A stretch of DNA of 14,645 nt from contig JAFUDW010000064.1 in NCBI GenBank assembly GCA_017464225.1, positions 1 through 14,645 on the forward strand, read 5' to 3'. Below the pieces are notes generated by a model, which had not been told where the DNA came from, ran no database searches, and saw only the letters and a program-made list of their open reading frames with translations. Of this stretch, positions 1 to 12,226 are shown one piece after another; the stretch's first letter is position 1; the number at the start of each line of letters is the position of its first letter. A program made the translations under genes and the position numbers. The stretch is from Clostridia bacterium (GTDB taxonomy: Bacteria > Bacillota_A > Clostridia > Christensenellales > Aristaeellaceae).

Positions 1-1098
1 GCCCCGGACGCCGCCCTGCCCCTGGATGATCAGCTGGTCATCCTCAGATCGGGCATCGACGCCCAGGCTGCGCAGCATGGCCAGGATGGCGGCCACCCGG
101 TCGGATTCCTTGAGCCGCAGGCGGGCGATGGGACGCAGAACGGTCCGCCCCTTGGCGTAGGCTGCCGCCACTGCCAGGATGGGCGCCAGGTCGGGGATGT
201 CGGATAGATCGATCTCCTGCCCGCGCAGCGCGCTTCCGCGGACAGCGGCGCTTCCCTCCCGCGTTTCGGTCAGCGCGCCAAAGCGTTTCAGCAGTCCCAG
301 GATCGCCCGGTCGCCCTGGGCGGAGTCAAGGCGCAGCGGCCCGCAGGCCACGCCGTCCGGGCTGAGCGCGCCGGCTGCCAGCCAGAAGGCCGCGCCGGAC
401 CAGTCGCCTTCTACAGAGAGACTTCCGGGGGAGAGGAAAACCTGATCGCCGGGAATGAAGAATCCATCCGCCGTTCTTTCAATGCGGACGCCAAAGGCGG
501 ATAGCGCTTGCAGCGTCATTTCCACATAGGGTTTGGATTCAAGCCTGCCCGTGACGGTCAAATAGCTGTCGCCATGCAGAGAAGGCAGCGCCAGAAGCAG
601 CCCGCTGACGAACTGGGAGGATACGCCGCCCGCGATCGTATACCGTCCGTGGCGCAGCGCGCCGCCGCAGCGCAGGGGAAAGCTGCCTTGGGGGGACAGC
701 TCCGCGCCCTGGGCCTGTAATTGCTCATAGAGCGGAGACAGCGGCCGCAGGCTCAGCTTGCCTTGTCCGGTGAAGGCGCAGTCGGCCTGGAGCGCGGCGG
801 CGACGGGCAGCAGGAAGCGCAGGGTGGAACCGCTTTCGCCGCAGTCCAGCAGCGCTCCCTTCCGCGGGCTTTGCATGGGGATGACCCGCAGATCGTCGCC
901 CTCCCGCGCGAAGTCGGCTCCCAATGCCTTCAGACAGCGGAGAGTGGCCTGCACGTCCGCGGAATACCCCATGCGGCGAAGCGTTGTGGGGCTGCCGGCC
1001 AGCGCGGCGCAGATCAGCAGCCGGTGGGCCTGGGATTTGCTGGACATTACAGGATCGACCGTTCCCGCCAGGGGATGGGGCGTAATGATCACGTTCAT
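1..1098 (-). CDS. aroA: 3-phosphoshikimate 1-carboxyvinyltransferase (EPSP synthase), C-terminus cut by window edge
   Basis: Transfers enolpyruvate from PEP to shikimate-3-phosphate, the sixth step of the cytosolic shikimate pathway. The frame is open to base 1, so 366 codons are visible of a usual 420-430; about 60 C-terminal residues are missing. Seen: N-terminal MSSKSQAHR with the substrate-binding Lys at residue 21, the GESGSTLR loop at 87-94 (counterpart of the PEP-site GNAGTAMR loop of E. coli), SSQFVSGLLLALP in the middle, and DIPDLAP at 300-306 holding the catalytic-type Asp 303. The ATG at 1098 overlaps the aroB stop (ATGA). It has a GGAGGTG ribosome binding site at 1107-1113, 8 nt upstream, so the two genes are translationally linked. 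The residue after LR in the loop is Phe where E. coli has Pro101; I infer this is lineage variation, not a selected resistance change. Confidence 0.96.
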   Translation of the reverse strand, partial: MNVIITPHPLAGTVDPVMSSKSQAHRLLICAALAGSPTTLRRMGYSADVQATLRCLKALGADFAREGDDLRVIPMQSPRKGALLDCGESGSTLRFLLPVAAALQADCAFTGQGKLSLRPLSPLYEQLQAQGAELSPQGSFPLRCGGALRHGRYTIAGGVSSQFVSGLLLALPSLHGDSYLTVTGRLESKPYVEMTLQALSAFGVRIERTADGFFIPGDQVFLSPGSLSVEGDWSGAAFWLAAGALSPDGVACGPLRLDSAQGDRAILGLLKRFGALTETREGSAAVRGSALRGQEIDLSDIPDLAPILAVAAAYAKGRTVLRPIARLRLKESDRVAAILAMLRSLGVDARSEDDQLIIQGQGGVRG

Positions 1099-2156
1099 AC
1101 GCCCGTCACCTCCCCGTTGCAGCAGGCGATAAAGTTCGCCAGCTCCCGGGCGGGCAGGGAATGGAGCGCGCTTTGTCCGCGCTTTACGGGCAGCACCAGG
1201 GTGATGGTATCGCCCTTGCGCTTTTTATCGTTCATGGCGATGGCTGCCACATCATGGGCGAAAAATGGCGTGGAAACAGGCAAGCGCTGGGCAGCCAGCA
1301 TGGATTTGAGTTCCCCGTATACGCCGCCCTCGCATAACCCATGCTTTTCCGCCGCCCAGGCCGCGATCAGCATCCCCACGGCCACGCCTTCGCCATGGTA
1401 AATGGCAAAGCCGTTCAGCTTTTCCAGCGCGTGGCCAAAGGTATGCCCCAGGTTCAGCAGCTGGCGCTGGCCGCGGTCGTGCTCGTCCTGACGGACGATA
1501 TCGGCTTTGATGCGGATGCAGTCAGCGATGATGGCGTTCAGATCCTCCTTCCGGGCGATGCGGCGCAGCAGCTCTCCATCGCAGATAGCACCGTACTTGA
1601 TCACCTCGGCCATGCCTTCGGCAAAGAGCGCGGGGGAGAGGGTGGACAGCGTATCGGGATCGCAGATCACCAGACGCGGCTGGTAAAACGCGCCGCACAG
1701 ATTTTTGCCCGCCTGCAGGTTCACCGCCGTTTTTCCGCCCACTGAAGCGTCCACCATGGCCAGCAGCGTGGTGGGGATCTGCACAAAATCGACGCCGCGC
1801 AGGTACAGGGCGGCGCTGAGCCCGGTAAGATCGCCCACCAGCCCGCCGCCCAGGGCGGCAAACAGATCGCCGCGGGTGATTTCGGCGTTGTTGGCGGCGT
1901 TCAGCAGCGCTTCCACGGTCTGGAGCGATTTCTGGCTCTCCCCATGGGCGAAAACGAAAGCGTCCACGGCAAAGCCGGCGGCTTCAAAGGAGGCGCGGGC
2001 GGCGTCCAGATACAGTGGAGCGACGCCGTCGTCGGTGACGATCATCACGTGGCGGCCCCGTACAGCCGGAGCGGTCAGCGCGCCTGCCTGGGCCAGCAGG
2101 CCGTTTTTCAGCAGCACGTCATAGGCGGGCTTCACGCGCACGGTCAGCTTTTCCAT
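1095..2156 (-). CDS. aroB: 3-dehydroquinate synthase
   Basis: Converts DAHP to 3-dehydroquinate, the second shikimate-pathway step, using NAD and a divalent metal in the cytosol. The 353-aa length is normal for the family. Seen: the NAD-binding GGGLVGDLTGLSAALYLRG stretch at 103-121, IPTTLLAMVDASVGGKTAVN from 127, and the metal-ligand set Glu184 (AEVIKYG), His238 and His242 (NLGHTFGH) and His254 (YHGEGVAVG). The ATG at 2156 lies inside the end of tyrA (13-bp overlap). It is preceded by an AGGAGGAG ribosome binding site near 2168-2176, which supports this start. It is the third gene of the leader-aroF-tyrA-aroB-aroA operon and shares its leader control. Confidence 0.97.
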   Translation of the reverse strand: MEKLTVRVKPAYDVLLKNGLLAQAGALTAPAVRGRHVMIVTDDGVAPLYLDAARASFEAAGFAVDAFVFAHGESQKSLQTVEALLNAANNAEITRGDLFAALGGGLVGDLTGLSAALYLRGVDFVQIPTTLLAMVDASVGGKTAVNLQAGKNLCGAFYQPRLVICDPDTLSTLSPALFAEGMAEVIKYGAICDGELLRRIARKEDLNAIIADCIRIKADIVRQDEHDRGQRQLLNLGHTFGHALEKLNGFAIYHGEGVAVGMLIAAWAAEKHGLCEGGVYGELKSMLAAQRLPVSTPFFAHDVAAIAMNDKKRKGDTITLVLPVKRGQSALHSLPARELANFIACCNGEVTGV

Positions 2157-2989
2157 TCGGTATCGATCTCCTCCTTGCGTTCGCGGCCTTCCCGCAGCAG
2201 GTTTTTGAGTGTTTCGGCGTCCCCGGACGCCAGCGCGTCCCGGTAGGCCGACAGCGCTTCGATCAGCCCGTCCAGCTCCCGGCCCAGATAATCGGCGTTA
2301 TCCAGAAACAGCTCTGTCCACATGGTCTCGTTGAGCTTGGCCACCCGGGTGAGATCCCGGTAGCTGCCCGCTGAAAAGCTCCTGTGCTGTTTGGCGGTGG
2401 GCGATTTGATGTAGGCGTTGCTCACCACGTGAGCCAATTGGGAGGTGAAGGCGATCATTTCGTCGTGCTTTTCGGCAGTGGTCAGCGTCACATGGGCAAA
2501 GCCCACGGCGTGCAGCAGGTCGCGCAGGCGGCTGAGCGCATACATATCCTCGTTCTCCCGGGGCACCAGGATCATGGTGGCGCCCTGGTACAGGTCGGCT
2601 TTGGCGTATTTGATGCCCGAAAATTGCCGCCCGGCCATGGGATGCCCGCCCACATAAGTAAAGCCGTTCTCCGCCGCCAAACGCTGGCAAGGCGCGCACA
2701 CCGCACGCTTGACGCCGCACAGATCGACCGCGATGGCGCCTTTTTTTACCCTGCTCGCCTGGGCGCGCAGGTATTCCACCGCCGCCCCGGGGTACAGGGC
2801 GATGAACAGATAATCGCAATCGCCGATCGTTTGGCCGTCCAGCCTGCCGTCCACCGTGCCGGTGAGCTCGGCATATTTCTGGGTGCTTTCGTCAATATCC
2901 AGGCCCAGTACCGGATATCCGGCGGCCTTCAAGGCCTTGCAGAGCGACGCTCCCATGAGCCCCAGCCCCACCACGCCGATCTGTTCCAT
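2144..2989 (-). CDS. tyrA: Prephenate dehydrogenase (TyrA)
   Basis: Oxidatively decarboxylates prephenate to 4-hydroxyphenylpyruvate, the tyrosine branch after chorismate. At 281 aa it is a stand-alone TyrA with no fused chorismate mutase and no C-terminal ACT domain. Seen: the Rossmann motif GLGLMGASL at 8-16, an acidic residue after the second strand (LGLDIDES) favouring NAD, the catalytic-type GGHPMAGRQFSG motif, and the helical domain with TSQLAHVVSNAY and SFSAGSYRDLTRVA. The frame is open to an ATG at 3046, but I chose the ATG at 2989. It has a GGAGG at 2998-3002 with 8-nt spacing, and the protein then begins directly with the Rossmann strand. The start is one base after the aroF stop, indicating tight translational coupling. 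Arogenate could be a substrate; the sequence does not decide this. Confidence 0.94.
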   Translation of the reverse strand: MEQIGVVGLGLMGASLCKALKAAGYPVLGLDIDESTQKYAELTGTVDGRLDGQTIGDCDYLFIALYPGAAVEYLRAQASRVKKGAIAVDLCGVKRAVCAPCQRLAAENGFTYVGGHPMAGRQFSGIKYAKADLYQGATMILVPRENEDMYALSRLRDLLHAVGFAHVTLTTAEKHDEMIAFTSQLAHVVSNAYIKSPTAKQHRSFSAGSYRDLTRVAKLNETMWTELFLDNADYLGRELDGLIEALSAYRDALASGDAETLKNLLREGRERKEEIDTEWKS

Positions 2990-2990
2990 A

Positions 2991-4001
2991 TCAGTTGCCT
3001 CCAATCGCTCCGCGCACGGCCCGGACGGCCTTTGCCACGTCGTCAAACTGCGCCGGCGTCAGCGATTGCGGGCCGTCGCATTTGGCGTGGGGCGGATCGT
3101 TGTGCACCTCGATCATCAGCCCGTCCGCGCCGCAGGCCGCCGCCGCCAGCGCCATGGGCTTCACATACCGGGCAACGCCGGTGGCATGACTGGGATCGAC
3201 GATCACCGGCAGATGGCTCATTTCATGCAGTACGGCCACGGCGGACAGATCCAGGGTATTGCGGGTGTAGGTTTCATAGGAGCGGATGCCGCGCTCGCAC
3301 AGGATCACCTGCTCGTTGCCGCCGGCCATGACGTATTCTGCGCTCATCAGCAGCTCCTTGATGGTGCCCGCGATGCCGCGCTTGAGCAGGATGGGCTTGT
3401 GCGTATGGCCCAGCTCCTTGAGCAGCTCAAAGTTCTGGGTGTTGCGCGCGCCCACCTGGATCACATCCACGTTTTCAAACAGCGGCAGATGGGCGATATC
3501 CATGATTTCGGTCACGATGGGCATGCCGGTGCGCCGTTTTGTTTCCAGCAGCAGGCGGATGCCCTCCTCATGCAGGCCCTGAAAATCATAGGGCGACGTG
3601 CGCGGCTTAAAAGCGCCGCCCCGCAGAAGACCCGCGCCGCTGGCTTTGACGGCGTTGGCCACCGTTTCCATCTGGCTTTCGCTTTCCACCGAGCAGGGCC
3701 CGGCGATGAACTGAAAATGCCCGCCGCCGATTTCAGCGCCCTCCACGATCCGGATCACGGTATCCTCGGGATGAAATTTCCGGTTGGCCTTTTTGAAGGG
3801 CTCGGAAATGCGGGTCACGTTTTCCACGATATCCAGCCCGCTGATCAAATCGGTATCGATACGCGTGGTATCGCCGATCAGCCCGATGATGGTCTGGAAT
3901 TCACCCTCGGAAATATGGGTGCGTACGCCGTAGCTTTCCAGCCAGCCGATCAGATGGGACATTTCTTCCTTGCGAACGTCTTTTTTCAGCGAAATAATCA
4001 T
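2991..4001 (-). CDS. aroF: 3-deoxy-7-phosphoheptulonate (DAHP) synthase, type I-beta with N-terminal regulatory domain
   Basis: Condenses PEP and erythrose-4-phosphate, the committed step of aromatic biosynthesis. At 336 aa it matches the Thermotoga-type class. Residues 1-70 form a ferredoxin/ACT-like regulatory domain (MIISLKKDV, then a predicted beta-alpha-beta pattern). The KDPS/DAHPS barrel follows: AGPCSVES at 100-107 with metal-ligand-type Cys103, GGAFKPRTSPYDFQG at 128-142, LLKRG near 205-209, DPSHATG at 269-275 and CDGPQSL at 308-314. An in-frame ATG exists at 4016, but the GGAGG at 4010-4014 would then lie inside the gene. That GGAGG is spaced exactly 8 nt from the ATG at 4001, so 4001 is the start. 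It is the first structural gene after the attenuator, and the U-run of the terminator ends only 2 nt before the ribosome binding site. Feedback by Tyr or Phe through the N-terminal domain is known for relatives and inferred here. Confidence 0.96.
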   Translation of the reverse strand: MIISLKKDVRKEEMSHLIGWLESYGVRTHISEGEFQTIIGLIGDTTRIDTDLISGLDIVENVTRISEPFKKANRKFHPEDTVIRIVEGAEIGGGHFQFIAGPCSVESESQMETVANAVKASGAGLLRGGAFKPRTSPYDFQGLHEEGIRLLLETKRRTGMPIVTEIMDIAHLPLFENVDVIQVGARNTQNFELLKELGHTHKPILLKRGIAGTIKELLMSAEYVMAGGNEQVILCERGIRSYETYTRNTLDLSAVAVLHEMSHLPVIVDPSHATGVARYVKPMALAAAACGADGLMIEVHNDPPHAKCDGPQSLTPAQFDDVAKAVRAVRGAIGGN

Positions 4002-4016
4002 CAGCTCATCCTCCAT

Positions 4017-4046
4017 AAAAAAGGGCCCGCAGTAATTCTGCGAGCC
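4017..4046 (-). terminator. Attenuator terminator (segments 3:4) in front of aroF
   Basis: On the minus strand GGCTCGCAG (4038-4046) pairs with CTGCGGGCC (4024-4032) over 9 bp with one T-G wobble. The loop is 5 nt, AATTA (4033-4037), and six T residues follow at 4017-4022. It is a canonical intrinsic terminator placed between the promoter and aroF, with no complete gene upstream other than the leader peptide. This makes it an attenuator and not an end-of-operon terminator. Its 5' arm, loop and first 3'-arm bases are also the partner of the antiterminator. Confidence 0.93.
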
Positions 4047-4120
4047 TCCCGATTTGATCCATTCAGGATAAAAGCGCGTGCAGCAAAATTACTTTACCTC
4101 ATTTGCAGATGGTAAAGTAA
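4031..4120 (-). promoter_or_regulatory. Mutually exclusive leader RNA pairings (1:2 hairpin and 2:3 antiterminator)
   Basis: Three RNA segments compete. Segment 1 (4111-4120, the codons for Tyr13-Phe14-Thr15) is perfectly complementary over 10 bp to segment 2 (4089-4098), with a 12-nt loop containing the leader stop codon. The 3' part of segment 2, AGTAATTTTGC (4083-4093), is complementary over 11 bp, with a single G-U pair, to GCAGAATTACT (4031-4041). That target is the tip of the terminator hairpin. If 1:2 forms, the antiterminator is blocked and the terminator can fold. If a ribosome covers segment 1, the antiterminator can fold and transcription continues into aroF. This is the layout of the enterobacterial trp and phe attenuators. 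The pairings are read from sequence; folding energies were not calculated. Confidence 0.88.
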
Positions 4121-4155
4121 AAGTAAAAATACTTGACGGTGTTCTTGCTTGCCAT
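4099..4155 (-). CDS. Tyr/Phe-rich leader peptide of the aro operon
   Basis: An 18-codon ORF encodes MASKNTVKYFYFYFTICK and ends in TGA at 4099. Six consecutive aromatic codons (TAT TTT TAC TTT TAC TTT, codons 9-14 at 4114-4131) are the sensor. Low charged Tyr-tRNA or Phe-tRNA should stall the ribosome there, over segment 1 of the attenuator. An AGGAA Shine-Dalgarno sequence at 4161-4165 lies 5 nt before the ATG. The stop codon falls in the loop between segments 1 and 2, so a ribosome that finishes the peptide would cover segment 2 and favour termination. The mix of Tyr and Phe codons, without Trp, suits a gene set headed by DAHP synthase and prephenate dehydrogenase. The peptide itself probably has no function. 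It is too short for normal gene callers. Confidence 0.9.
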   Translation of the reverse strand: MASKNTVKYFYFYFTICK

Positions 4156-4172
4156 GGCGCTTCCTTTCCACG

Positions 4173-4191
4173 CCGCGCTTTTTCTGCGCGG
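4173..4191 (-). promoter_or_regulatory. 5' leader hairpin upstream of the leader-peptide RBS
   Basis: On the minus strand CCGCGC (4186-4191) and GCGCGG (4173-4178) form a perfect 6-bp GC stem with a 7-nt A-rich loop. It lies about 8-10 nt after the predicted transcription start and just before the leader Shine-Dalgarno sequence. It could protect the 5' end or slow the polymerase so that the first ribosome can load. No T run follows, so it is not a terminator. The role is inferred. Confidence 0.6.
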
Positions 4192-4205
4192 TATCGAATG
4201 ATGAT

Positions 4206-4234
4206 AGTTTAGCACACTAAAGTGAACTTGGCAA
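4206..4234 (-). promoter_or_regulatory. Sigma-70/SigA promoter of the aro operon
   Basis: The -35 box is TTGCCA (4229-4234) and the -10 box is TAAACT (4206-4211), with an ideal 17-bp spacer on the minus strand. Transcription should start near 4199, giving a leader RNA of about 198 nt before the aroF ATG. It contains the leader peptide and attenuator in the correct order. Confidence 0.85.
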
Positions 4235-4256
4235 GGGACAAACAAAAGAAAAACAG

Positions 4257-4291
4257 ATGAAAGGCGCAGCTGCGGCATTCATGAAAGCGCG
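4257..4291 (+). repeat. Direct repeat and palindrome upstream of the two-component promoter
   Basis: ATGAAAGGCGC (4257-4267) and ATGAAAGCGCG (4281-4291) are near-identical direct repeats 24 bp apart. They end 1 bp before the -35 box of the response regulator promoter. A 10-bp perfect palindrome, CGCAGCTGCG (4265-4274), sits between and partly within them. OmpR-family regulators bind direct repeats near their own promoters, so this may be an autoregulatory site. That is inference only. Confidence 0.4.
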
Positions 4292-4292
4292 C

Positions 4293-4322
4293 TTGATATT
4301 CTTTGGCGCTGTGTATTATAAT
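4293..4322 (+). promoter_or_regulatory. Sigma-70/SigA promoter of the two-component operon
   Basis: The -35 box is TTGATA (4293-4298) and the -10 box is a consensus TATAAT (4317-4322), with an 18-bp spacer. It is divergent from the aro promoter; the two -35 boxes are about 58 bp apart. The resulting 5' UTR to the ATG at 4410 is about 80 nt, in which I see no recognisable riboswitch. Confidence 0.85.
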
Positions 4323-4409
4323 AACTATGCAAGGTACCGACGCCAGCTACAGGTACGAGGGATATGCCCGATACAGGACGGAAGAGTTATAAAGACTTGG
4401 AGGATTTGC

Positions 4410-5090
4410 ATGCGCGTTTTGCTTGTGGAGGATGAAAAAGCCCTGTCCTCTGCCATTTGCCAGGTGCTGAGGCGGGAACAGTTTACCGTGGATCCGGTGT
4501 ATACCGGCACCGACGGCTATGATTATGCCCAGAGCGATATTTACGACGCCATTGTGCTGGATGTGATGCTGCCCGGCATGGACGGCTTTACCGTGCTCAA
4601 AAAGCTGCGGAGCGAGGGCATTCGCACGCCGGTATGCATGCTCACCGCCCGATCCGGGCTGGAGGACAGGGTGCGGGGGCTGGAAAGCGGCGCCGATTAT
4701 TATCTGCCCAAGCCATTTCAGATGGCTGAGCTGGCGGCTTGCCTGCGGGCCATCACACGCCGAAGGGAGGAAGCGCCGGTGATGGAGCTGGCCTATGGCG
4801 ACGTACAGCTGAACCAGCAGGAGGCCAAGCTGATCCACCGCGCCACCGGGCAGGAGGTCAAGCTGGGGGCCAAGGAGTATCAGCTCATGGAGCTGTTTTT
4901 GCGCAACTCAGGACAGACCTTGCCCAAGGATACTATTTTCGATCGGGTATGGGGCTATGAAAGCGAAGCCGATATCAGCGCTGTGGAGGTGTATATTTCC
5001 TTTCTGCGCAAAAAGCTGGCCTTTATCGGCTCCAATATCAGGATCCGCGCCGCCCGGGGCATCGGCTATTCACTGGAGGAAGGCGTATGA
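4410..5090 (+). CDS. OmpR/PhoB-family DNA-binding response regulator
   Basis: A 226-aa two-domain regulator that, once phosphorylated by its kinase, should bind DNA and alter transcription. Receiver domain, about 1-115: acidic pair Glu7-Asp8, phospho-acceptor Asp51 in VLDVMLPGMDG, switch Thr79 in CMLTARS and Lys101 in YYLPKPF. Winged-helix effector domain, about 128-226: LNQQEAKLI, LGAKEYQLMELFLRNSGQ, IFDRVWGY, VEVYISFLRKKL and the C-terminal IRAARGIGYSL. The open frame extends to 4257, but the GGAGG at 4399-4403, 6 nt before the ATG at 4410, and the canonical MRVLLVEDE opening fix this start. The stop overlaps the kinase start (ATGA). The target genes cannot be read from the sequence. Confidence 0.95.
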   Translation: MRVLLVEDEKALSSAICQVLRREQFTVDPVYTGTDGYDYAQSDIYDAIVLDVMLPGMDGFTVLKKLRSEGIRTPVCMLTARSGLEDRVRGLESGADYYLPKPFQMAELAACLRAITRRREEAPVMELAYGDVQLNQQEAKLIHRATGQEVKLGAKEYQLMELFLRNSGQTLPKDTIFDRVWGYESEADISAVEVYISFLRKKLAFIGSNIRIRAARGIGYSLEEGV

Positions 5091-6379
5091 TCAAAAGGCT
5101 GCAAAAGCGCATGATCCTGCTGGTGCTGGGCGGGCTGCTGCTGGCCTCGGCGGGGCTGGTGTTCGCCGTCAACTGGATCAACTGGCGGAGCATTGTCAGT
5201 CAGGCAGGCGGTGTATTGAATATGCTGGCCGAAAACGACGGGCAGCGCCCGCTGGCAATGGAACGGGAGACCTTTGCGCCCATCGGCGAAACGCCGCCGC
5301 CATTTTCGCGGAATGATATGGGTTTTGACGGGCGAAACGACCGGGGAAACCGGGGGCATAATAATGATCTGCGCAGCGCTGCCAGCCTGATCAGCTCCTA
5401 TACTGTGGAGCTGGATGCCGATGGAAACGTGACCGAATGGAACAGCGACCGGTGCGAACTGTACAGCGAGGAGCAGAACGCCGGGGTGGTTGACGCCGCG
5501 CTGAAAAAGGGAACGGAAACGGGCCGGGTGGATACCCAGTTTTACCGGCTTGTGCCCCGGAACGAATGCAGGCTGCTGATCGTGGTGGATCAGCGTCTGG
5601 CCATACAGGACGCCATGCGCGTGCTGCGGCTCACCTGCCTGTTTGCCATTGCGGAGGACGCGCTGCTGGCTATTGGCGCCGTTCTGCTGATCCGCCGCAT
5701 GGTCAAGCCGGTGGACGAGGCCATGGAGAAGCAAAAACAGTTTGTCTGGGATGCCAGCCATGAGCTCAAAACGCCGCTGGCCGTGATTTCCGCAAACGCG
5801 GAAGCGCTGGCGGGAGAGGTAACGGACAGCAAACCTCTGGAATACATCCAGTCGGAGGTGCAGCGCACCGATCATTTGATTCAAAACCTGCTCACGCTGG
5901 CGCGGCTGGAGAAGGGCACGGTCAAGGCCGAGCTCAAGCGCTTTGACTTGAGCCGCGCCGTGCTGAGCGTGGCGCTGCCCTTTGAAAGCGCGGTGTTTGA
6001 AGCGGGAAAAACGCTGGATACTCAGGTGCCGGATGGCGTGCAGTATACCGGGGATGAGGAAATGATCAAGCAGCTGTGCGTGATCCTGCTCAGCAACGCT
6101 CAGAAGTATGGCGACGACCATGGCAAAATCACCCTGAGCCTGGAAGTCAGGGGGGATAAGCGCGTGCTGAAAGTCCATAACACCGGCCCTGCCATTCCGC
6201 CGGAGGCGCAAGGCAAGATCTTTGACCGCTTTTATCGGGTGGATTCCAGCCACAACAGCGATATCCCGGGCAACGGTCTGGGGCTGGCCATCGCCAAAAG
6301 CATCGTGGAAGCGCATAAGGGAAAGATCACGGTGGAAAGCGCTGAAAATACCGGTACGGCATTTATGGTGGTTCTATAG
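5087..6379 (+). CDS. Membrane sensor histidine kinase
   Basis: A 430-aa kinase partner of the upstream regulator. Seen: a transmembrane segment at about 8-29, an extracytoplasmic region of about 150 residues, and a second transmembrane segment at about 183-203 that contains two acidic residues. The DHp domain has phospho-acceptor His225 in DASHELKTPL. The HATPase_c domain has N-box Asn337 (LLSNAQKYGDD), NTGPAIP at 365-371, the F-box IFDRFYR and the G2 box GNGLGLAIAKSIVEAH from 395. There is little room for a HAMP domain between the second membrane helix and the DHp helix. The G1 box has Asn in place of the usual Asp. Residues 73-96 of the sensor region are rich in Asn, Arg, Asp and Gly, with no recognised fold. 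The stimulus is unknown. The gene ends just before a strong terminator. Confidence 0.95.
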   Translation: MIKRLQKRMILLVLGGLLLASAGLVFAVNWINWRSIVSQAGGVLNMLAENDGQRPLAMERETFAPIGETPPPFSRNDMGFDGRNDRGNRGHNNDLRSAASLISSYTVELDADGNVTEWNSDRCELYSEEQNAGVVDAALKKGTETGRVDTQFYRLVPRNECRLLIVVDQRLAIQDAMRVLRLTCLFAIAEDALLAIGAVLLIRRMVKPVDEAMEKQKQFVWDASHELKTPLAVISANAEALAGEVTDSKPLEYIQSEVQRTDHLIQNLLTLARLEKGTVKAELKRFDLSRAVLSVALPFESAVFEAGKTLDTQVPDGVQYTGDEEMIKQLCVILLSNAQKYGDDHGKITLSLEVRGDKRVLKVHNTGPAIPPEAQGKIFDRFYRVDSSHNSDIPGNGLGLAIAKSIVEAHKGKITVESAENTGTAFMVVL

Positions 6380-6381
6380 CG

Positions 6382-6435
6382 AAAAAAACTTCGGCGTCAA
6401 AATGATAGCTTTCATTTTGACGCCGAAGTTTTTTT
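6382..6435 (+). terminator. Long perfect hairpin terminator after the kinase gene (bidirectional)
   Basis: A 24-bp perfect inverted repeat (6382-6405 with 6412-6435) with a 6-nt loop begins 2 bp after the kinase stop. Seven A residues open it and seven T residues close it, so it can end transcripts from both strands. It is likely also the terminator of the minus-strand gene at 6637-6840. Confidence 0.95.
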
Positions 6436-6471
6436 ATACTGGTCGCTGGTTAAAATACTGCAAGCAGAAAG

Positions 6472-6597
6472 ATTTGACGAGAGTACGATAAGAACCTCGG
6501 CGTCCGGGGCCTACCGGCCCGCTCTACGCTGAAAGCCTGCCACCGGCAGCCTTTCCGGGCGCTTCGAGCCCCTTATCGTCTCCCATCCCCGTCAAAT
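6472..6597. repeat. Cloverleaf-like palindromic intergenic element, unknown family
   Basis: The 201 bp between the terminator and the next gene hold no ORF. The outer ends ATTTGACG (6472-6479) and CGTCAAAT (6590-6597) are perfect inverted repeats. A second pair, CGATAAG (6486-6492) and CTTATCG (6572-6578), nests inside. Within these lie three local hairpins. The first is GGGCC/GGCCC (6507-6520), enclosed by GCGT/ACGC (6500-6529). The second is an 11-bp stem with one mismatch (6531-6541 with 6545-6555). The third is a stem with a bulge (6557-6572). The whole could fold as a cloverleaf in RNA or be a mobile palindromic repeat. I see no target-site duplication and do not recognise the family. 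Confidence 0.6.
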
Positions 6598-6636
6598 TCC
6601 TGTTTTCAGGTGTATATCTTTCATCGAGAATCAGTA

Positions 6637-6840
6637 TCAGTCCTTTACGGTCACCCGATCGCGGAACAGCAGCGTGGTACACCATAGCCCGGCGGCACCA
6701 ACCAGCGTATAAATGATGCGGCTGATCACGGCAGCCTGGCCGCCAAAAATGGACGCCACCAGATCAAACTGGAAAATGCCGATCAGGCCCCAGTTCACCG
6801 CGCCGATGATGACCAGCAGCAGAGCGATTCTGTCCAGCAT
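6637..6840 (-). CDS. Small DUF378-type membrane protein
   Basis: A 67-aa protein with two predicted membrane helices, about 4-24 (IALLLVIIGAVNWGLIGIF) and 39-58 (ISRIIYTLVGAAGLW), and a short basic/acidic tail. The ALLLxxIGAxNWGLIGxFxFDLV pattern is characteristic of the DUF378 family (YuzA-like) of small bacterial membrane proteins, whose function is not known. The AAGGAGGT at 6849-6856 lies 8 nt before the ATG and supports the start. It follows the aminotransferase on the same strand with a 76-bp gap, so it could be expressed by read-through or from its own weak promoter. Confidence 0.88.
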   Translation of the reverse strand: MLDRIALLLVIIGAVNWGLIGIFQFDLVASIFGGQAAVISRIIYTLVGAAGLWCTTLLFRDRVTVKD

Positions 6841-6849
6841 AACAAAACA

Positions 6850-6884
6850 CCTCCTTGCTTTGCAACGTTATTATGTCAAGGAGG
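6850..6884 (-). promoter_or_regulatory. Inverted repeat that can sequester the DUF378 gene RBS
   Basis: In the minus-strand transcript CCTCCTTG (6877-6884) is perfectly complementary to CAAGGAGG (6850-6857), which contains the Shine-Dalgarno of the downstream gene. The spacer is 19 nt. If transcription begins upstream, for example by read-through from the aminotransferase, the hairpin would hide the ribosome binding site. If it begins inside the spacer, where a CATAAT sequence occurs, it would not. Confidence 0.5.
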
Positions 6885-6916
6885 CGTTTTTGCTATTCAT
6901 TGAAATGATGTTTTGA

Positions 6917-8116
6917 TCATTCCAGGCTGTCCACAAAGTGCTTCATCCGGCGCACGGCTTCGGAAATCTGCACGTCGTTGACGGCGTAGGAAAGGCGTAC
7001 AAAGCCATTTGCGCCGAAGGGCGCGCCGGGGATGACGGCCACAAAGGCCTTTTTCAGCAGCAGCTCGGCAAATTTACCGTCGCTGTCAATGATCTCATCC
7101 CCGCATTTTTTGCCGATGTAGGGGCGCACGTCCAGCAGCATGTAGAATGCGCCTTTGGGCATTACGCCGGGCCGGAGGGCGTTCTGCGCCAGCAGGAACA
7201 AAAGCAGCGTGCGGCGGCGGGCAAAGGAATGGGCCATATCCACCACGCAGTCCTGGGGCGCGGTCAGGGCGGTCAAGGCGGCGTACTGGGTGATGCTGTT
7301 GGGGTTGCCGGTCATATGGCTCTGAATGGAGCCCATGGCTTTGATGGCAAACAGCGGGCCCGAGGCGTAACCCATGCGCCAGCCGGTCATGGCGTAGGCT
7401 TTGCTGAAGCCCGAAACCAGAATGGTGCGCTGCTTGGCGTCGTCGCTGATTTGGGCGGGGGAAATCTGGGTGTAGCCGTCGTAGCACAGATCCTCGTAGA
7501 TCTCGTCGCTGATAATGAAGAAATCATGCTTCCGGGCCAGCTCGCAGGCCGCGGCCAGCAGCTCCCGGGGCCAGATGGTGCCCGTGGGGTTGTTGGGAGA
7601 GTTGATGATGATGGCCTTTGTCCGTTCGGAAACGGCCTCCTCCAGCTGGGCTTGGGTGGGCAGAAAATCGGTTTCGGGATCGGTGGTGATGATCACCGGT
7701 TTGCCGCCCGCGATCTTGATCATTTCGGTATAGCTGATCCAGTAGGGCGAGGGAAGGATGACCTCGTCGCCGGGGTTCAGCACGGACTGCAGCGCCAGCA
7801 CGATGGCCTGTTTGGCGCCCGAGGATACGATGATCTCATCCGGGCTGTACCGCAGCGATTTATGGGCGAATATATGGTTTGCAATGGCTTGGCGAAGCTC
7901 GGGAATGCCCTTTACGTCGGTATAGCGCGTTTTGCCGGCGTCGATGGCCTCCTTGGCGGCCTTGCGGATATGGACGGGCGTATCAAAATCAGGTTCGCCC
8001 ACGCCCATGGAAATCACATCCTCGCCCTGCTCCTTGAGCTGGGCCACGATGGCGTTGAGCCCCAGGGTTGCGGAGGGCGTAATGGATTTGGCGATATCGG
8101 AAAGTTCCAGCGGCAT
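6917..8116 (-). CDS. Class I pyridoxal-phosphate aminotransferase (aspartate aminotransferase-like)
   Basis: A 399-aa PLP enzyme that moves an amino group between an amino acid and a 2-oxo acid in the cytosol. Seen: GVGEPDFDTP at 38-47, SSGAKQAI at 98-105, PYWISYTEM at 124-132, NSPNNPTGT at 172-180, Asp204 and Tyr207 in ISDEIYEDL, the PLP-binding Lys239 in SGFSKAYAMTGWR, and substrate-carboxylate Arg374 in FVRLSYA. These fit the I-gamma subgroup, which includes aspartate and aspartate/prephenate aminotransferases. Specificity cannot be fixed from motifs; a role in Phe/Tyr synthesis is possible given the aro operon 3 kb away but is not shown. The AAAGGAG 7 nt before the ATG supports the start. 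It has its own promoter at 8161-8189, separate from proC. Confidence 0.93.
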   Translation of the reverse strand: MPLELSDIAKSITPSATLGLNAIVAQLKEQGEDVISMGVGEPDFDTPVHIRKAAKEAIDAGKTRYTDVKGIPELRQAIANHIFAHKSLRYSPDEIIVSSGAKQAIVLALQSVLNPGDEVILPSPYWISYTEMIKIAGGKPVIITTDPETDFLPTQAQLEEAVSERTKAIIINSPNNPTGTIWPRELLAAACELARKHDFFIISDEIYEDLCYDGYTQISPAQISDDAKQRTILVSGFSKAYAMTGWRMGYASGPLFAIKAMGSIQSHMTGNPNSITQYAALTALTAPQDCVVDMAHSFARRRTLLLFLLAQNALRPGVMPKGAFYMLLDVRPYIGKKCGDEIIDSDGKFAELLLKKAFVAVIPGAPFGANGFVRLSYAVNDVQISEAVRRMKHFVDSLE

Positions 8117-8160
8117 GAAAAGGCTCCTTTCGGAATGCAGGATTGCTGAGTTGCAGTTGC

Positions 8161-8189
8161 ATTATATACCCTTTCATTCCCGATTACAA
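8161..8189 (-). promoter_or_regulatory. Sigma-70/SigA promoter of the aminotransferase gene
   Basis: The -35 box is TTGTAA (8184-8189) and the -10 box is a consensus TATAAT (8161-8166), with a 17-bp spacer on the minus strand. The 5' UTR is about 35-40 nt and begins with a tandem TGCAAC repeat. The promoter lies in the 116-bp gap after proC. Confidence 0.87.
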
Positions 8190-8232
8190 CCCTTTGAAAT
8201 GAATTTTTATTGTATTGATTATCCCAATTCTT

Positions 8233-9021
8233 TTATTTTCCGATGGATTTCTCGTAGGCGGCGATCACGGCTTCCATCACGGCGCCGCGCATCCCGCCGG
8301 CCTCCAGCGCGCGAACACCCTGAATGGTAGTGCCGCCGGGAGAGCAAACCTGATCCTTGAGCGGGCCGGGATGCAGGCCGGAAAGCGCCAGCTGCGCCGT
8401 GCCCGCCATCATTTGGGCCGCCAGCTCCAGCGCTTGTGCGCGGGGCAGGCCGCAGGCCACGCCGCCGTCGGAGAGCGCCTCCAAAAAGAGCGCCGCGAAG
8501 GCCGGGCCGCAGCCCGACACCGCGCTGCCGGCCTCAAACAGGTGCTCGTCCATGCGCACGAATCGGCCCGAAGCTGAAAGATCATTCAAAAATTCCTCCA
8601 GCACGGCGTCCGGCACGTGCCCATCCGCCGCGTACAGCGTCATGCCCGCGCCAACGGCCACCGGCGTGTTGGGCATGATGCGGATCACCGGGTATTCGCC
8701 GCCCGCCATGCCGCGCACCTGATCCATGGTGATGCCAGGGGCCATGGATACCAGTACCGAGCCGCCATACAGCGCCGGAGCGATGTCGGCGATGACGCCC
8801 GCCATCATATAGGGTTTGACGCCCAGCAAGATATAGTCGGCGGCCTGAACGGCTTCCTGTGCCGAGCCCGCCGTTTGGCAGCCCAGGGCGTCGGCCAGCT
8901 TCCGCGCCTTCTCGGGCGTGCGGTTGAACAGGATGACCTGGGCGGGATGCACCTTTTTGCAAAGGCCCTTTGCCAGCGCGCCGCCCATGTTTCCGGTGCC
9001 GATGATCGCATAAACAGCCAT
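8233..9021 (-). CDS. proC: Pyrroline-5-carboxylate reductase
   Basis: Reduces pyrroline-5-carboxylate to proline with NAD(P)H, the last step of proline synthesis in the cytosol. The 262-aa length is normal. Seen: the Rossmann motif IIGTGNMGGAL at 6-16, NRTPEK after the second strand, LLGVKP near 65-70, RIMPNTPVAVGAGMT in the centre, AVSGCGPAF, and the C-terminal signature running from HPGPLKDQV to SPGGTTIQGVRALE, which forms the substrate site and dimer core. The AAGGAGGA at 9028-9035, 6 nt before the ATG, supports the start. It follows uppP, but a terminator hairpin sits directly before its ribosome binding site, leaving no room there for a separate promoter. Confidence 0.97.
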   Translation of the reverse strand: MAVYAIIGTGNMGGALAKGLCKKVHPAQVILFNRTPEKARKLADALGCQTAGSAQEAVQAADYILLGVKPYMMAGVIADIAPALYGGSVLVSMAPGITMDQVRGMAGGEYPVIRIMPNTPVAVGAGMTLYAADGHVPDAVLEEFLNDLSASGRFVRMDEHLFEAGSAVSGCGPAFAALFLEALSDGGVACGLPRAQALELAAQMMAGTAQLALSGLHPGPLKDQVCSPGGTTIQGVRALEAGGMRGAVMEAVIAAYEKSIGK

Positions 9022-9037
9022 AACGTATCCTCCTTAT

Positions 9038-9063
9038 AAAAAGCGGCAGGCCAAGCCTGCCGC
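9038..9063 (-). terminator. Terminator between uppP and proC
   Basis: GCGGCAGGC (9055-9063) pairs perfectly with GCCTGCCGC (9043-9051) over 9 bp, with a 3-nt loop and five T residues at 9038-9042. It starts 11 bp after the uppP stop, and the proC Shine-Dalgarno begins 2 nt after its T run. It probably ends or thins out the parAB-uppP transcript. Confidence 0.88.
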
Positions 9064-9074
9064 CGCGTTGTTGA

Positions 9075-9914
9075 TCACAGAAGCCCAGATGCCGCCAGCG
9101 CCAGCACCGCCGCGCCTAAAATAATGCGGTAGATGCCGAACACACGGAAGGAATGGGTGCGGATATAATTGACCAGTGCGCGGATGGCGACAATCGATAC
9201 CGCGAAGGCCATCACAAAGCCCACGGCCAGGATGGCGGCTTCGCTGCCGGTCATGGCGCCGCCGTTCATCACAAATTTGACGCATTTTAAAAGACTTGCG
9301 CCCGCCATGGTGGGGATGGCCATAAAAAAGCTGAATTCCACCGCCGCGGTGCGGCCAAGGCCCAGCAGCAGCGCGCCGATGATGGTGCTCCCGCTGCGGG
9401 AGGTACCGGGGATCAGGGCCAGCACCTGAAAACAGCCGATCAGGAAGGCTGTTTTGTAGCTGACGCCCTGGATGCTGCCGATGCGCCTTGCGTGCTTGCC
9501 GCCTTCCAGACGATCCAGCAGCAGAAAGATCACGCCGTATACGATCAGCGCGACGGCAACCGTGACCGCGCCGTTCAGGCGAGCTTCGATCCAATCGTTC
9601 AACAGCACGCCCACGATGCCGCTGGGGATCACCGCCACGATGATCTTGAACCACAGCGACCAGGTATCGCGCTTTTCCGCGGGGGATTTTGACGGAGCGA
9701 AGGGATTGAGCCGCCGGAAATAGAGCACAACCACGGCCAGGATGGATCCCAGCTGGATCACCACATCATAGAGATTCCAAAAATCCTCAGTGATGCCCTT
9801 TAAGGGCAGCAATGCGTTCAGGATCAGCAGATGGCCGCCCGAGCTGACGGGCAGCCATTCGGTGATGCCCTGCACAAGCCCCATCAGGGCGGATTTGAGC
9901 AGATTGAAAAGCAT
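9075..9914 (-). CDS. uppP: Undecaprenyl-diphosphate phosphatase (UppP/BacA)
   Basis: An integral membrane enzyme that removes phosphate from undecaprenyl diphosphate, recycling the lipid carrier for peptidoglycan and other wall polymers; overexpression in other bacteria gives bacitracin resistance. At 279 aa with several hydrophobic segments it fits the BacA family. Seen: the first signature QGITEWLPVSSGGHL at 15-29, with the catalytic-type Glu19 and His28, and the second signature LIPGTSRSGST at 167-177 with Arg173. The TRP-like EWLP and SGGH variants replace the more usual EFLP and STGH, which is common in the family. An AGGGAGA ribosome binding site lies in the 12-bp gap after parB, so it is likely cotranscribed with parAB. 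Confidence 0.96.
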   Translation of the reverse strand: MLFNLLKSALMGLVQGITEWLPVSSGGHLLILNALLPLKGITEDFWNLYDVVIQLGSILAVVVLYFRRLNPFAPSKSPAEKRDTWSLWFKIIVAVIPSGIVGVLLNDWIEARLNGAVTVAVALIVYGVIFLLLDRLEGGKHARRIGSIQGVSYKTAFLIGCFQVLALIPGTSRSGSTIIGALLLGLGRTAAVEFSFFMAIPTMAGASLLKCVKFVMNGGAMTGSEAAILAVGFVMAFAVSIVAIRALVNYIRTHSFRVFGIYRIILGAAVLALAASGLL

Positions 9915-9926
9915 AAACGATCTCCC

Positions 9927-10772
9927 TTATTGGTTTTCAAGCCGTTCCATGGCGGCGTAGATGGCCTCCAGCTCCTCCTCGGTGCTGTACTGCAATACCA
10001 CCTTGCCGCGTTTCAGGCTGCCGGTGAGCAGCGTGCGCACGCCGATCACGTTTTGCAGCCGCGCCCGCATATCCTCCAGTTCCACGGCGATGGGCTTTTT
10101 TTCGCGGCGTTCGGCGGGCTTTTCGGGCATGGCGGCCAGCTTTTCGGCCTCGCGCACGCTGAGCCCTTCCCGCACGATACGCTGGGCCAGGGCGCGCTGA
10201 GTATGCGCGCCGTTCATGCCGGCCAGCACCCGGGCGTGCCCGGCGGACAGGCTGCCGTCCTTTACCAATTGCTGAATATCCTCGGGAAGCGTCAGCAGGC
10301 GCAGCAGGTTGGCCACGGCCGGGCGCGAACGGCCTACGCGCCGGGCGGCTAATTCCTGCGTATAGCCGCAGGCGTCCATCAGCTCGCGGATGCCGGCGGC
10401 CTCCTCCATGGGATTCAGATCCTCGCGCTGCAGGTTTTCGATCAGCGCGGCTTCCATGCGCTCCTGGGCGTTCATTTCGCGCACGATACAGGGTACGCTC
10501 TGCAGGCCGGCCATCCGGGCGGCCCGGTAGCGGCGCTCGCCGGCGATGATGCGGTAACGGTTGCCCTCGGGCGCCACCAGCAGCGGCTGCAAAACGCCTG
10601 TCTGGCGGATGCTCTCGGCCAGCGTTTCCAGCGCTTCCTTTTCAAAAACGCGCCGGGGCTGATCGGGATTGGGATCTATTTCATTGAGGGCGATCTCGGT
10701 GGAGCCGGAGGGCTCGTCGCTTTCCGGCAGCAGGATATCCAGCCCGCGCCCCAGTCCTTTTTTGGAAGCCAT
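9927..10772 (-). CDS. parB: Chromosome partitioning protein ParB (Spo0J)
   Basis: A CTP-dependent DNA clamp that loads at parS near the origin and, with ParA and SMC, separates new origins. The 281-aa length is normal. Seen: the N-terminal ParA-stimulating peptide KKGLGRGLDILL at 4-15, box I from LNEIDPNPDQPRR, the CTP-binding box II AGERRYRAARMAG at 77-89, ENLQREDLNPMEEA at 112-125, a helix-turn-helix at about 138-162 (TQELAARRVGRSRPAVANLL), and a C-terminal dimerisation domain from about 215. A GAGGAA precedes the ATG by 7 nt. It lies 31 bp downstream of parA. No perfect parS site was found in the window. Confidence 0.96.
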   Translation of the reverse strand: MASKKGLGRGLDILLPESDEPSGSTEIALNEIDPNPDQPRRVFEKEALETLAESIRQTGVLQPLLVAPEGNRYRIIAGERRYRAARMAGLQSVPCIVREMNAQERMEAALIENLQREDLNPMEEAAGIRELMDACGYTQELAARRVGRSRPAVANLLRLLTLPEDIQQLVKDGSLSAGHARVLAGMNGAHTQRALAQRIVREGLSVREAEKLAAMPEKPAERREKKPIAVELEDMRARLQNVIGVRTLLTGSLKRGKVVLQYSTEEELEAIYAAMERLENQ

Positions 10773-10803
10773 GGTTCATTCCTCATTTCTTTGGTTGATC
10801 GGT

Positions 10804-11574
10804 TTATTTTACGCGTTCGCCGTTGCGGGCCAGCACCTCCCGGGCCAGGGACCGGTAAGCCTCCGCCCCGGTGGAACGCGGATCGTAGCGGTTGATGGGC
10901 AGCGCGTGGCTGGGCGCTTCGCCCAGGCGCACGTTGCGGGGTACGGTGGTGGCGAATACCTTGGATTTAAAATGCTTTTTTACCTGCGCCACCACCTGCA
11001 GGCTCAGGTTAGTGCGCCCGTCGAACATGGTCAAAAGCACGCCTTCGATCTCCAGCGAAGGATTCAAGCCGCGCTTGACCCGGTTTACGGTGTCGGTCAG
11101 GCTGCGCACGCCCTCCAGGGCATAGTATTCGCATTGGATGGGGATCAGTACGCTGCCCGCCGCCGTCAGGGCGTTCACGGTCAGCAGTCCCAGGGAGGGC
11201 GGGCAATCGATCAGGATATAATCGTAAGCGTCGGCCAGACCGCGCAGAGCGGCCCGCAGGCGGTATTCCCGGCGATCCAGCCCCACCATTTCGATTTCGG
11301 CCCCGGCCAGGCGGATATCGGAGGGCAGCACATCCATGCCGGAGGTGTCGGTGGATATGACGGCCTTTTCGGCTGTGGCGATCCCCAGCAGCACCTCGTA
11401 CAGCGTGATATCGCCCGCGGGAGCGCCCGAGCCGCTGGAGGCGTTGCCCTGGGGATCGGCGTCGATCAGGAGCACCTTTTTACCCAGCTCGGCCAAGCAG
11501 GCGCTCAAATTGACGGACGTAGTGGTTTTGCCCACGCCGCCCTTCTGATTGGTAACGGCAATGATTTTGGCCAA
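10804..11574 (-). CDS. parA: Chromosome partitioning ATPase ParA (Soj)
   Basis: A deviant-Walker ATPase that works with ParB in origin segregation. In Bacillus subtilis its homologue Soj also regulates DnaA, which fits its position beside dnaA. At 256 aa it is the short chromosomal type, without an N-terminal helix-turn-helix. Seen: the deviant Walker A KGGVGKTTT at 11-19, A' LIDADPQGNAS at 36-46, Walker B ILIDCPPSLG at 120-129, and SVLIPIQCEYYALEG. The start codon is TTG at 11574, preceded by AAGGAA; the family-typical MAKIIAVTNQKGG opening supports it. It is 17 bp downstream of the unrecognised 163-aa gene, implying one operon. Confidence 0.96.
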   Translation of the reverse strand: MAKIIAVTNQKGGVGKTTTSVNLSACLAELGKKVLLIDADPQGNASSGSGAPAGDITLYEVLLGIATAEKAVISTDTSGMDVLPSDIRLAGAEIEMVGLDRREYRLRAALRGLADAYDYILIDCPPSLGLLTVNALTAAGSVLIPIQCEYYALEGVRSLTDTVNRVKRGLNPSLEIEGVLLTMFDGRTNLSLQVVAQVKKHFKSKVFATTVPRNVRLGEAPSHALPINRYDPRSTGAEAYRSLAREVLARNGERVK

Positions 11575-11591
11575 TGTGATTCCTTCTTTGT

Positions 11592-12083
11592 TTACTGTTT
11601 TCTTTCGTCAGGCAGCCAGCCGCGCCAGCGGTACGGGGGATAGCAGGTCCTTACCGTGCGGGCGATCAGCGACAGCTCATCCTCGGTTTGAAAGGCGGCG
11701 AAGGGCTGATACAGCGCCCGAAGGGCGGCAAGGCTTTCGTGAGACATGGCGTATTGCCGGAGCCGCCCATACTGCCAGGCGTTATGCGGCAGGCGGCACA
11801 GCGCAAGATAGAGAAGCTCGTCCGCCATCTGATCGATATCGTCCACGTGGATGCGGATCACGCGCCCATCGTCCAGCAGCACGCGCATATCGCCTTCGGT
11901 CAGGCTGCGGGCCTGCTGGAACAGCAGCGTGCTCAGCTGGGCGTACAGCGCGGCGGGGTCCTCCTCCTCGATGGGAAAGGCGTTCAGCGCTTCGCAGGCG
12001 TTTCGGCGGATATCGCAGGCGTCAAGAAAGGCTGCTCCCAGCCAGGGGCGCAGCACCGCCGCAACCGTTTCCTCACGCACCAT
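11592..12083 (-). CDS. Hypothetical protein, first gene of the parAB operon
   Basis: A 163-aa soluble-looking protein that I do not recognise. The open frame extends to an ATG at 12101, but AAAGGAG at 12092-12098 sits 8 nt before the ATG at 12083, so the shorter form is chosen. There is no signal peptide or membrane segment. The middle is acidic (IEEEDP, then HVDDIDQMADE). The second half is rich in Leu, Ala and Tyr with predicted helices. The C-terminus is CYPPYRWRGWLPDERKQ, aromatic then charged. No catalytic or DNA-binding motif stands out. Its place between oriC and parA, under a promoter that overlaps a DnaA-box-like site, suggests a role linked to replication or segregation, but this rests on context alone. 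Confidence 0.8.
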   Translation of the reverse strand: MVREETVAAVLRPWLGAAFLDACDIRRNACEALNAFPIEEEDPAALYAQLSTLLFQQARSLTEGDMRVLLDDGRVIRIHVDDIDQMADELLYLALCRLPHNAWQYGRLRQYAMSHESLAALRALYQPFAAFQTEDELSLIARTVRTCYPPYRWRGWLPDERKQ

Positions 12084-12109
12084 GACGGCCTCTCCTTTCA
12101 TGCCCTACC

Positions 12110-12138
12110 AAAATACCACATTTGCGCCGATTTGTCCA
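12110..12138 (-). promoter_or_regulatory. Promoter of the hypothetical-parA-parB operon
   Basis: On the minus strand the -35 box is TGGACA (12133-12138) and the -10 box is TATTTT (12110-12115), with a 17-bp spacer. The predicted start, near 12103, leaves a short leader with the AAAGGAG ribosome binding site. The -35 overlaps a DnaA-box-like TTGTCCACC (12132-12140), so DnaA might influence it. Confidence 0.7.
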
Positions 12139-12168
12139 CCGCCCGGGGCGGCAAAGGCGGCTTTGAGG

Positions 12169-12226
12169 ATAAAAAAAGAAATTTTATTGAAGATTATTAC
12201 AATAAAATTAAAAATCGGAATATTTA
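12169..12226. other. AT-rich putative DNA unwinding element
   Basis: 51 of 58 bases are A or T, in otherwise GC-rich DNA. It contains a 10-bp perfect inverted repeat, AATTTTATTG (12180-12189) with CAATAAAATT (12200-12209), around a 10-nt spacer. It lies between the DnaA-box-like site at 12132 and the cluster at 12292-12420. Confidence 0.7.

Follow-up and report, generated by a model that had tools for sequence, protein, structure and literature searches.

How is the aromatic amino acid supply of a Clostridia bacterium read out in front of its aro operon? We addressed this question for a stretch of 14,645 nucleotides (assembly GCA_017464225.1, contig JAFUDW010000064.1, positions 1 to 14,645; the window hereafter), in which the original prediction had placed a complete ribosome-mediated Tyr/Phe attenuator upstream of aroF. 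Leader-peptide attenuation is a textbook enterobacterial device, as in the trp and pheA leaders. Based on sequence comparison and folding models, a transcription attenuator of this trp/pheA type very probably controls aroF-tyrA-aroB-aroA through the availability of charged Tyr- and Phe-tRNA, a reading supported by the recurrence of the parts, the recurrence of the pairings and the matching of codons to downstream genes. The Clostridia-like origin was also borne out, as AroF shares 94% identity with its counterpart in a Clostridia metagenome-assembled genome (MAG; locus L001) and 92% with that of locus L082. All proposed parts were found at the predicted coordinates, together with a 5' hairpin:

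4206 to 4234, minus strand: promoter TTGCCA-17 nt-TAAACT with TG before the -10, 9 of 12 matches; TGTGCTAAACT retained in L001 and L082
4173 to 4191, minus strand: 5' hairpin CCGCGC/GCGCGG between the expected transcription start and the leader Shine-Dalgarno site, z -4.1 in the window
4161 to 4169, minus strand: Shine-Dalgarno site of the leader open reading frame (ORF), GGAAAGGAA, by sequence inspection
4099 to 4155, minus strand: leader ORF MASKNTVKYFYFYFTICK of 18 codons, with the stop UGA at 4101-4099, by ORF translation
4114 to 4131, minus strand: control codons Tyr-Phe-Tyr-Phe-Tyr-Phe (codons 9-14), retained in L001 and YYFFYF in L082
4111 to 4120, minus strand: segment 1, pairing with 4098-4089
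4089 to 4098, minus strand: portion of segment 2 pairing with segment 1, from the pairing model
4083 to 4093, minus strand: portion of segment 2 pairing with segment 3 (antiterminator 5' strand), from the pairing model and covariation
4031 to 4041, minus strand: segment 3 (antiterminator 3' strand), from the pairing model and covariation
4024 to 4046, minus strand: intrinsic terminator hairpin 3:4 with 9 pairs and a loop of 5, from a terminator search and covariation
4017 to 4022, minus strand: U6 tract of the terminator, by sequence inspection
4014 to 4010, minus strand: aroF Shine-Dalgarno site GGAGG, by sequence inspection
2991 to 4001, minus strand: aroF, DAHP synthase with an N-terminal ferredoxin-like domain (PF00793, PF18152, NF006421), ATG at 4001

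The 1:2 hairpin of the window joins 4120-4111 with 4098-4089 by 10 Watson-Crick pairs and, as predicted, carries the UGA stop inside its loop. The antiterminator joins 4093-4083 with 4041-4031 by 11 pairs, one of them G-U. As the two helices have only five bases in common (4093-4089), they are mutually exclusive only in part. Folding of 4180-4010 yielded -60.6 kcal/mol (z -4.2), with none of 200 shuffles as low. Among 100 shuffled spacers, 1% matched the 1:2 helix and 6% the 2:3 helix, indicating that the latter taken by itself is not far above chance and that the case rests on the family. Likewise, the promoter alone is weak evidence, since the region holds three promoter-like sites of that quality with 0.7 expected. 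The 5' hairpin directly preceding the leader Shine-Dalgarno site perhaps serves in 5'-end protection or as an early pause. Hairpins of different sequence lie at roughly the same position in L001, L082, L083 and L006, with z -1.6 in L082; as a family-wide feature the hairpin was rejected, the mean z over 93 leaders being -0.14.

A Tyr/Phe-rich ORF upstream of aroF is not a product of chance. Three retrievals (80, 30 and 40 regions) together with the window gave 151 regions upstream of aroF, with L081 repeating L001, and the survey counts refer to the 148 regions having at least 150 nt upstream of aroF. Short ORFs with at least five Tyr/Phe in seven codons, which the original prediction had expected to be conserved, were present in 102 of the 148 loci, compared with 1.93% of 5920 dinucleotide shuffles. 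For at least six in seven the corresponding values were 66 loci and 0.12%, and for seven in seven 17 loci and zero shuffles. Twelve other residue pairs tried in the same way reached a top count of 39 (Leu/Ile). All 93 aroF leaders with at least five in seven contain Tyr, and 77 of the 93 ORFs are preceded by a Shine-Dalgarno-like site, compared with 207 of the 660 other ATGs that these regions contain. A script located a terminator-like hairpin behind 61 of 63 such ORFs. At the lower threshold of four, a terminator separates the run from aroF in 109 non-identical leaders, some low-scoring rows among these (L107, L122, L123) being probably not leaders; in 12 others no terminator reached the score used. 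Leaders of the family are also present in cultured species, namely Sporobacter termitidis DSM 10068 (L080), Angelakisella massiliensis (L050), Yanshouia hominis (L044) and Aminicella lysinilytica (L062). Relative to the antiterminator 5' strand, the leader stop lies before it in 34 of the 93 leaders, as in the window (4101-4099 versus 4093-4083), inside it in 28, and at or past its 3' end in 31; in these last, read-through of segment 2 yields peptide endings such as KVKVISAA. Trp codons also occur in the leaders of L027, L057, L065, L107 and L326, located before aroF or a TrpX-like transporter gene (IWYWYYF, YWFWFSF), which suggests three-way aromatic sensing.

The alternative pairings 1:2, 2:3 and 3:4, the last being the intrinsic terminator, recurred across the family. 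We compared own with swapped segments in 60 loci, excluding L006 as well as L038 and L071, which have no real leader; terminators were set by hand for L013, L049 and L064, replacing the script picks for L013 and L064. The average 1:2 duplex energy was -23.1 kcal/mol for own segments and -16.7 kcal/mol for swapped ones, the own pair surpassing the swap mean in 53 of 60 loci with segment 1 fixed and in 55 with segment 2 fixed. For 2:3 the values were -17.7 and -12.6 kcal/mol, with the own pair better in 54 loci (segment 2 fixed) and in all 60 (terminator fixed). The median share of swaps that did no worse than the native pair was 8-14%. Own segments also surpassed the mean of shuffled segment 2 regions in 56 of 60 loci for 1:2 and in 60 of 60 for 2:3.

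Covariation was assessed on an alignment of 40 sequences (A2), picked from the 109 aroF leaders for typical geometry. The observed scores were 0.226 for 1:2 (shuffles 0.188), 0.217 for 2:3 (0.138) and 0.551 for 3:4 (0.229), and none of 500 shuffles reached the observed value for any of the three helices, although kinship among sequences can push scores above shuffles without structure. Controls with a slid register scored clearly lower for 3:4, whereas for 2:3 the slide of +3 was nearly equal (0.191). Taken across relatives, compensatory change, which the original prediction had called for, appears strong for 3:4, moderate for 2:3 and weak for 1:2, where little covariation is expected because the 5' strand is constrained by its codons.

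We next modelled folding in the presence of a ribosome assumed to cover the RNA from 24 nt before to 12 nt after the first A-site base. For the window RNA made up to segment 3, the modelled probability of 2:3 rose from 0.15 in the ribosome-free state to 0.99-1.00 when codons 10-14 occupied the A site, and was 0.40 for a ribosome at the stop. Expressed as antiterminator pairs, the window gave 5.0 without a ribosome, 10.2 when stalled and 6.7 at the stop; the corresponding means of the 93 leaders were 7.2, 12.6 and 3.6. In the models, a stalled ribosome thus frees segment 2 for segment 3, and one at the stop does so to a lesser degree, the stalled state exceeding both alternatives in 88 of 93 leaders and the ribosome-free state by at least three pairs in 62 of 93.

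These models are consistent with the following mechanism. With Tyr- and Phe-tRNA plentiful, the ribosome would pass the run, reach the stop in the 1:2 loop and cover part of segment 2, leaving the terminator to form. If either tRNA ran short, the ribosome would stall on the run and cover segment 1, allowing 2:3 to pair and the polymerase to continue into aroF. Without translation, 1:2 would form and the terminator would follow. In the leaders with an ORF running through segment 2 (31 of 93), translation itself would clear the antiterminator. To the parts, their conservation and the codon matching observed here, this scheme adds two steps that we infer, namely stalling by uncharged tRNA and a sufficiently close timing of transcription and translation.

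Beyond the original prediction, the element appears to form a family across Clostridia that is also found before pheA, tyrS and transporter genes. A covariance model (R1), built from the 40 aroF leaders of A2 only, was searched against 391 genomes of the class and 347 genomes of the order of G001, the genome of the nearest relative, matching 92 of 391 at E <= 0.01 and 39 of 347 at E <= 1e-4, respectively; the search filters drop weak matches, and hits of lower score are of mixed kind. A threshold of 41.8 bits left 34 hits in 31 genomes of the class and 28 more in 27 genomes of the order, G001 left out. The gene behind each of these 62 hits serves to make, charge, use or transport aromatic amino acids; it is aroF in 52 cases (27 and 25), pheA in five, a TrpX-like gene in three, and tyrS and a PaaK-like gene in one each. 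All 62 also have a short ORF with at least four Tyr/Phe in seven codons, in part by construction; six are exact copies of A2 sequences, 11 are exact copies of leaders already surveyed, and there are near relatives among the others. Among 26 retrieved hits below 41.8 bits, 14 lie before aroF, pheA or a TrpX-like gene and 12 do not (L191, L193, L195, L196, L200-L203, L322, L323, L329 and L332). Three more TrpX-like cases and one more pheA case stand at 37-41 bits.

All six TrpX-like substrate-binding proteins carry PF04392, and the three tested reached 207-238 bits with a TrpX cut-off of 390, for which reason we regard them as relatives of TrpX. The codons of their leaders, as in the Tyr/Phe leader of L324, point to Tyr/Phe as the substrate, with Trp also contained in that of L326 (YWFWFSF). 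Bacillota tyrS genes are usually under T-box control. In L183, tyrS (TIGR00234) lies behind a Tyr-rich leader (1480-1720; QAYYYLFS) whose segment 2 and terminator are similar too. In L184 (180-420), a Tyr/Phe leader precedes a gene resembling phenylacetate-CoA ligase (PaaK-like) and one for an ACT-domain (ACT-pair) protein, pointing to arylacid salvage or breakdown under the control of Tyr/Phe supply. Two MAGs labelled Treponema (L008, L009) have Tyr-run leaders (YYYYSYY) before an aroF that is 73-74% identical to that of the window. In the class of one Treponema-labelled genome, G009, the model matched 11 of 148 genomes at E <= 0.01, two of them, including G009, above 40 bits.

The control codons of separate pheA leaders follow the branch of the pathway. 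Seven genomes (G243, G315, G293, G356, G217, G396, G414) encode pheA apart from aroF and with its own leader, and all seven of these leaders carry 6-9 Phe codons but no Tyr (such as MNNFAFTSFGFFFAFTSRGI), compared with 5-7 Tyr and 2-4 Phe codons in the aroF leaders of the same genomes (for example MKTAVFFYAYSYYYYFREKN). As the leaders of G243, G217 and G356 are nearly alike, the seven Phe-only cases amount to about five independent ones at most. In five of the seven genomes, the next ORF of at least 120 codons downstream of the separate pheA runs in the opposite direction; a ZnuA-like gene follows after about 565 nt in G217 and a putative ABC transporter component after about 75 nt in G396. 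In G203 and G462 no AroF of the family was found; there pheA heads a longer aro run, and its leader combines Tyr with Phe. Both runs include aroB, followed in G203 by aroC and an aroE-aroK-like gene. A leader before pheA as a general arrangement was rejected, as a leader with a terminator occurred in only seven of 70 pheA loci, six being R1 hits already and G203 alone new.

This dependence of the Tyr:Phe ratio on the downstream gene fits sensing by codons rather than chance or arrest by the nascent peptide. In the latter case, the aromatic peptide itself would stall the ribosome upon free Tyr/Phe or a drug, with the same RNA switch acting thereafter. The anatomy would be identical, the Tyr/Phe run is retained in the window, L001 and L082, and motifs beyond the run (FAAEY, KVKVISAA) appear repeatedly among family peptides. 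However, these motifs fall on paired RNA segments and do not occur in the window peptide, the leaders differ in how many Tyr and Phe they carry and in what order (YFYFYF, YYFFYF, YYYYYFTF, YYYYSYY), and the seven genome pairs track the downstream gene, so that we consider peptide arrest very improbable.

T-boxes are common on Bacillota amino acid genes, raising the question of whether a T-box or metabolite riboswitch acts here with a merely fortuitous ORF; T-boxes have been reported for his genes in the accessible part of one study (PMC9413887). In Rfam 15, neither the window nor any of ten family loci had a match at the gathering score, which counts against such another 5' regulator, and at E values up to 10 the leader gave only implausible matches far below the gathering score. 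The T-box bulge motif UGGNACCRCG is absent from the upstream region of the window and occurs in one of the 148 regions, a locus that has a Tyr/Phe leader too (L073). With the Tyr/Phe bias far above chance as well, this explanation is even more remote than peptide arrest.

Several observations weigh against a ribosome-mediated attenuator, or against its generality. In the survey, 46 of the 148 aroF loci lack an ORF at five in seven; the plausible but weaker aroF leaders of L006 and L100 carry Phe without Tyr, and the Tyr runs of L008, L009 and L012 lack Phe. In the covariation analysis, the count of pairs changed on both sides was matched by 46 (1:2), 86 (2:3) and 108 (3:4) of 500 shuffles, and two slid controls of 1:2 were each higher on one count. 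In the folding models, 2:3 in the window still has a probability of 0.88-0.99 with the ribosome at codons 15-18, past the run, and stalling gives a gain of less than half an antiterminator pair in 14 of 93 leaders, five of which show no gain. Once segment 4 is made, the equilibrium probability of 3:4 is 0.27 at one codon and at least 0.81 at the others; the switch must therefore be kinetic, as the terminator wins at equilibrium at most stall positions. In Bacillus subtilis, RNA polymerase outruns the ribosomes, according to the accessible part of a review (PMC7858274), and such runaway transcription, if valid in Clostridia, would disfavour the mechanism.

Further points of this kind come from the relatives of the window. 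Of seven loci with AroF 75-90% identical, only L083 (81%; leader MRQAYGYYYYYFTFTKTV) has an ORF with at least five in seven, and L006 (77%; leader MRSGRTFGFAFTFTFFTLMAG) stands at four. L002, L004, L005 and L007 (80-83%) lack a Tyr/Phe-rich ORF and contain an open frame of at least 70 codons ending at most 81 nt from aroF. Aromatic codons lost with the terminator kept, which according to the original prediction would speak against it, were encountered in one near relative, L003 (84%), where a similar terminator without a leader ORF looks like decay; otherwise the attenuator assignment stands. Since L002-L005 and L007 lack all or part of the element, the switch appears to be at times lost or replaced. 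The same losses might favour a constitutive terminator behind a non-functional short ORF, inherited by descent only and without regulation in the lineage of the window, yet L001 and L082, whose leaders differ from that of the window at four of the first eight residues (MVSKASRK, MSSKTGRK), retain the six-residue Tyr/Phe run, stop, pairings, terminator, promoter -10 and leader Shine-Dalgarno site, making this scenario highly implausible.

We compared the attenuator with described systems. It shares with the enterobacterial trp and pheA leaders the control codons over segment 1, the stop near the 1:2 loop, the competition of 2:3 with 3:4, the U-tract terminator and the biosynthetic operon. It differs in its phylum, in lacking a match to an Rfam leader family, in addressing two amino acids per leader, and in an ORF that, in 31 of 93 family members, spans the antiterminator strand completely and in 28 ends inside it. 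The nearest described system appears to be uORFC-13-1 of Acholeplasma (PMC8632094); the His-leader attenuators of Bacillota are also close. In the accessible description, uORFC-13-1 comprises 24 sequences from Acholeplasma and environmental samples only, is located upstream of aroF with a promoter, a uORF with at least one Phe codon and a terminator, and was suggested to act by Phe-sensing attenuation; that description mentions no Tyr/Phe run and no Clostridia, pheA, tyrS or transporter members. The His-leader attenuators (PMC2965389, PMC9413887), as far as the accessible texts describe them, are likewise ribosome-mediated and belong to the same phylum, including some Eubacteriales, but use His codons before hisS, hisZ and his operons; the 2022 study covers 17 genomes, and hisZ leader cases also appear in PMC4833913. 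The gbs2033 element (PMC4448216) lies upstream of the Enterococcus aroFBC-tyrA operon, but was reported as a riboswitch that also occurs at ABC transporter genes, its accessible text mentioning no leader peptide. In line with the original prediction, which knew of no described leader of this kind, a search of the open-access literature, with subscription papers, supplements and older comparative surveys of attenuation outside its scope, found no description of such Clostridia leaders. Our best reading is of an element that would work like the trp/pheA attenuators, stands outside the Rfam leader families and the T-box, and represents a new, widespread Clostridia variant.

The genes downstream of aroF complete the operon:

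2144 to 2989, minus strand: tyrA, prephenate dehydrogenase (PF02153, PF20463)
1095 to 2156, minus strand: aroB, 3-dehydroquinate synthase (PF01761, PF24621)
1 to 1098, minus strand: aroA, EPSP synthase (PF00275), extending beyond the window end

For tyrA, the ATG at 2989 was preferred to the TTG at 3046 proposed by the ORF finder. In G001, a prephenate dehydratase domain, located by domain position only, lies about 4.6 kb beyond aroF on the same strand and contig, and the operon may therefore hold both the Tyr and the Phe branch. A response regulator (4257-5090, plus strand) and a histidine kinase (5087-6379, plus strand) form a pair transcribed divergently from the operon, accompanied by a site at 4293-4322 that resembles a promoter in 11 of 12 positions. 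A phage origin of 3900-4300 was rejected, there being no close match in the phage collection. Pfam further identified parB (9927-10772, minus strand), parA (10804-11574, minus strand) and dnaA (12511-13836, plus strand), so the replication origin is probably close to the window. Beside these genes lies a repetitive ORF rich in Ala, Glu and Lys (13923-14645, minus strand).

Leader-peptide attenuation is on record for his genes of Bacillota and has been proposed for aroF of Acholeplasma, judging from the accessible parts of the sources cited above. Our data favour, with less certainty than for the window itself, a large and undescribed aromatic-amino-acid attenuator regulon of Clostridia comprising aroF operons, pheA, TrpX-like, tyrS and PaaK-like genes, in which the Tyr:Phe(:Trp) mix would be tuned per gene, translation would erase the antiterminator in one third of the leaders, and the prevalence would imply that ribosomes match the pace of RNA polymerase. 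A leader type spread across many Clostridia gives a list of Tyr/Phe-controlled genes that can be read from sequence, and its codons predict the substrates of TrpX-like transporters. Genomes holding both a Phe-only and a Tyr and Phe leader provide natural pairs for testing codon sensing. Transcription-translation coupling becomes directly testable at these leaders, whose prevalence in Clostridia is of interest given the runaway transcription described for Bacillus subtilis in the accessible part of the review (PMC7858274).

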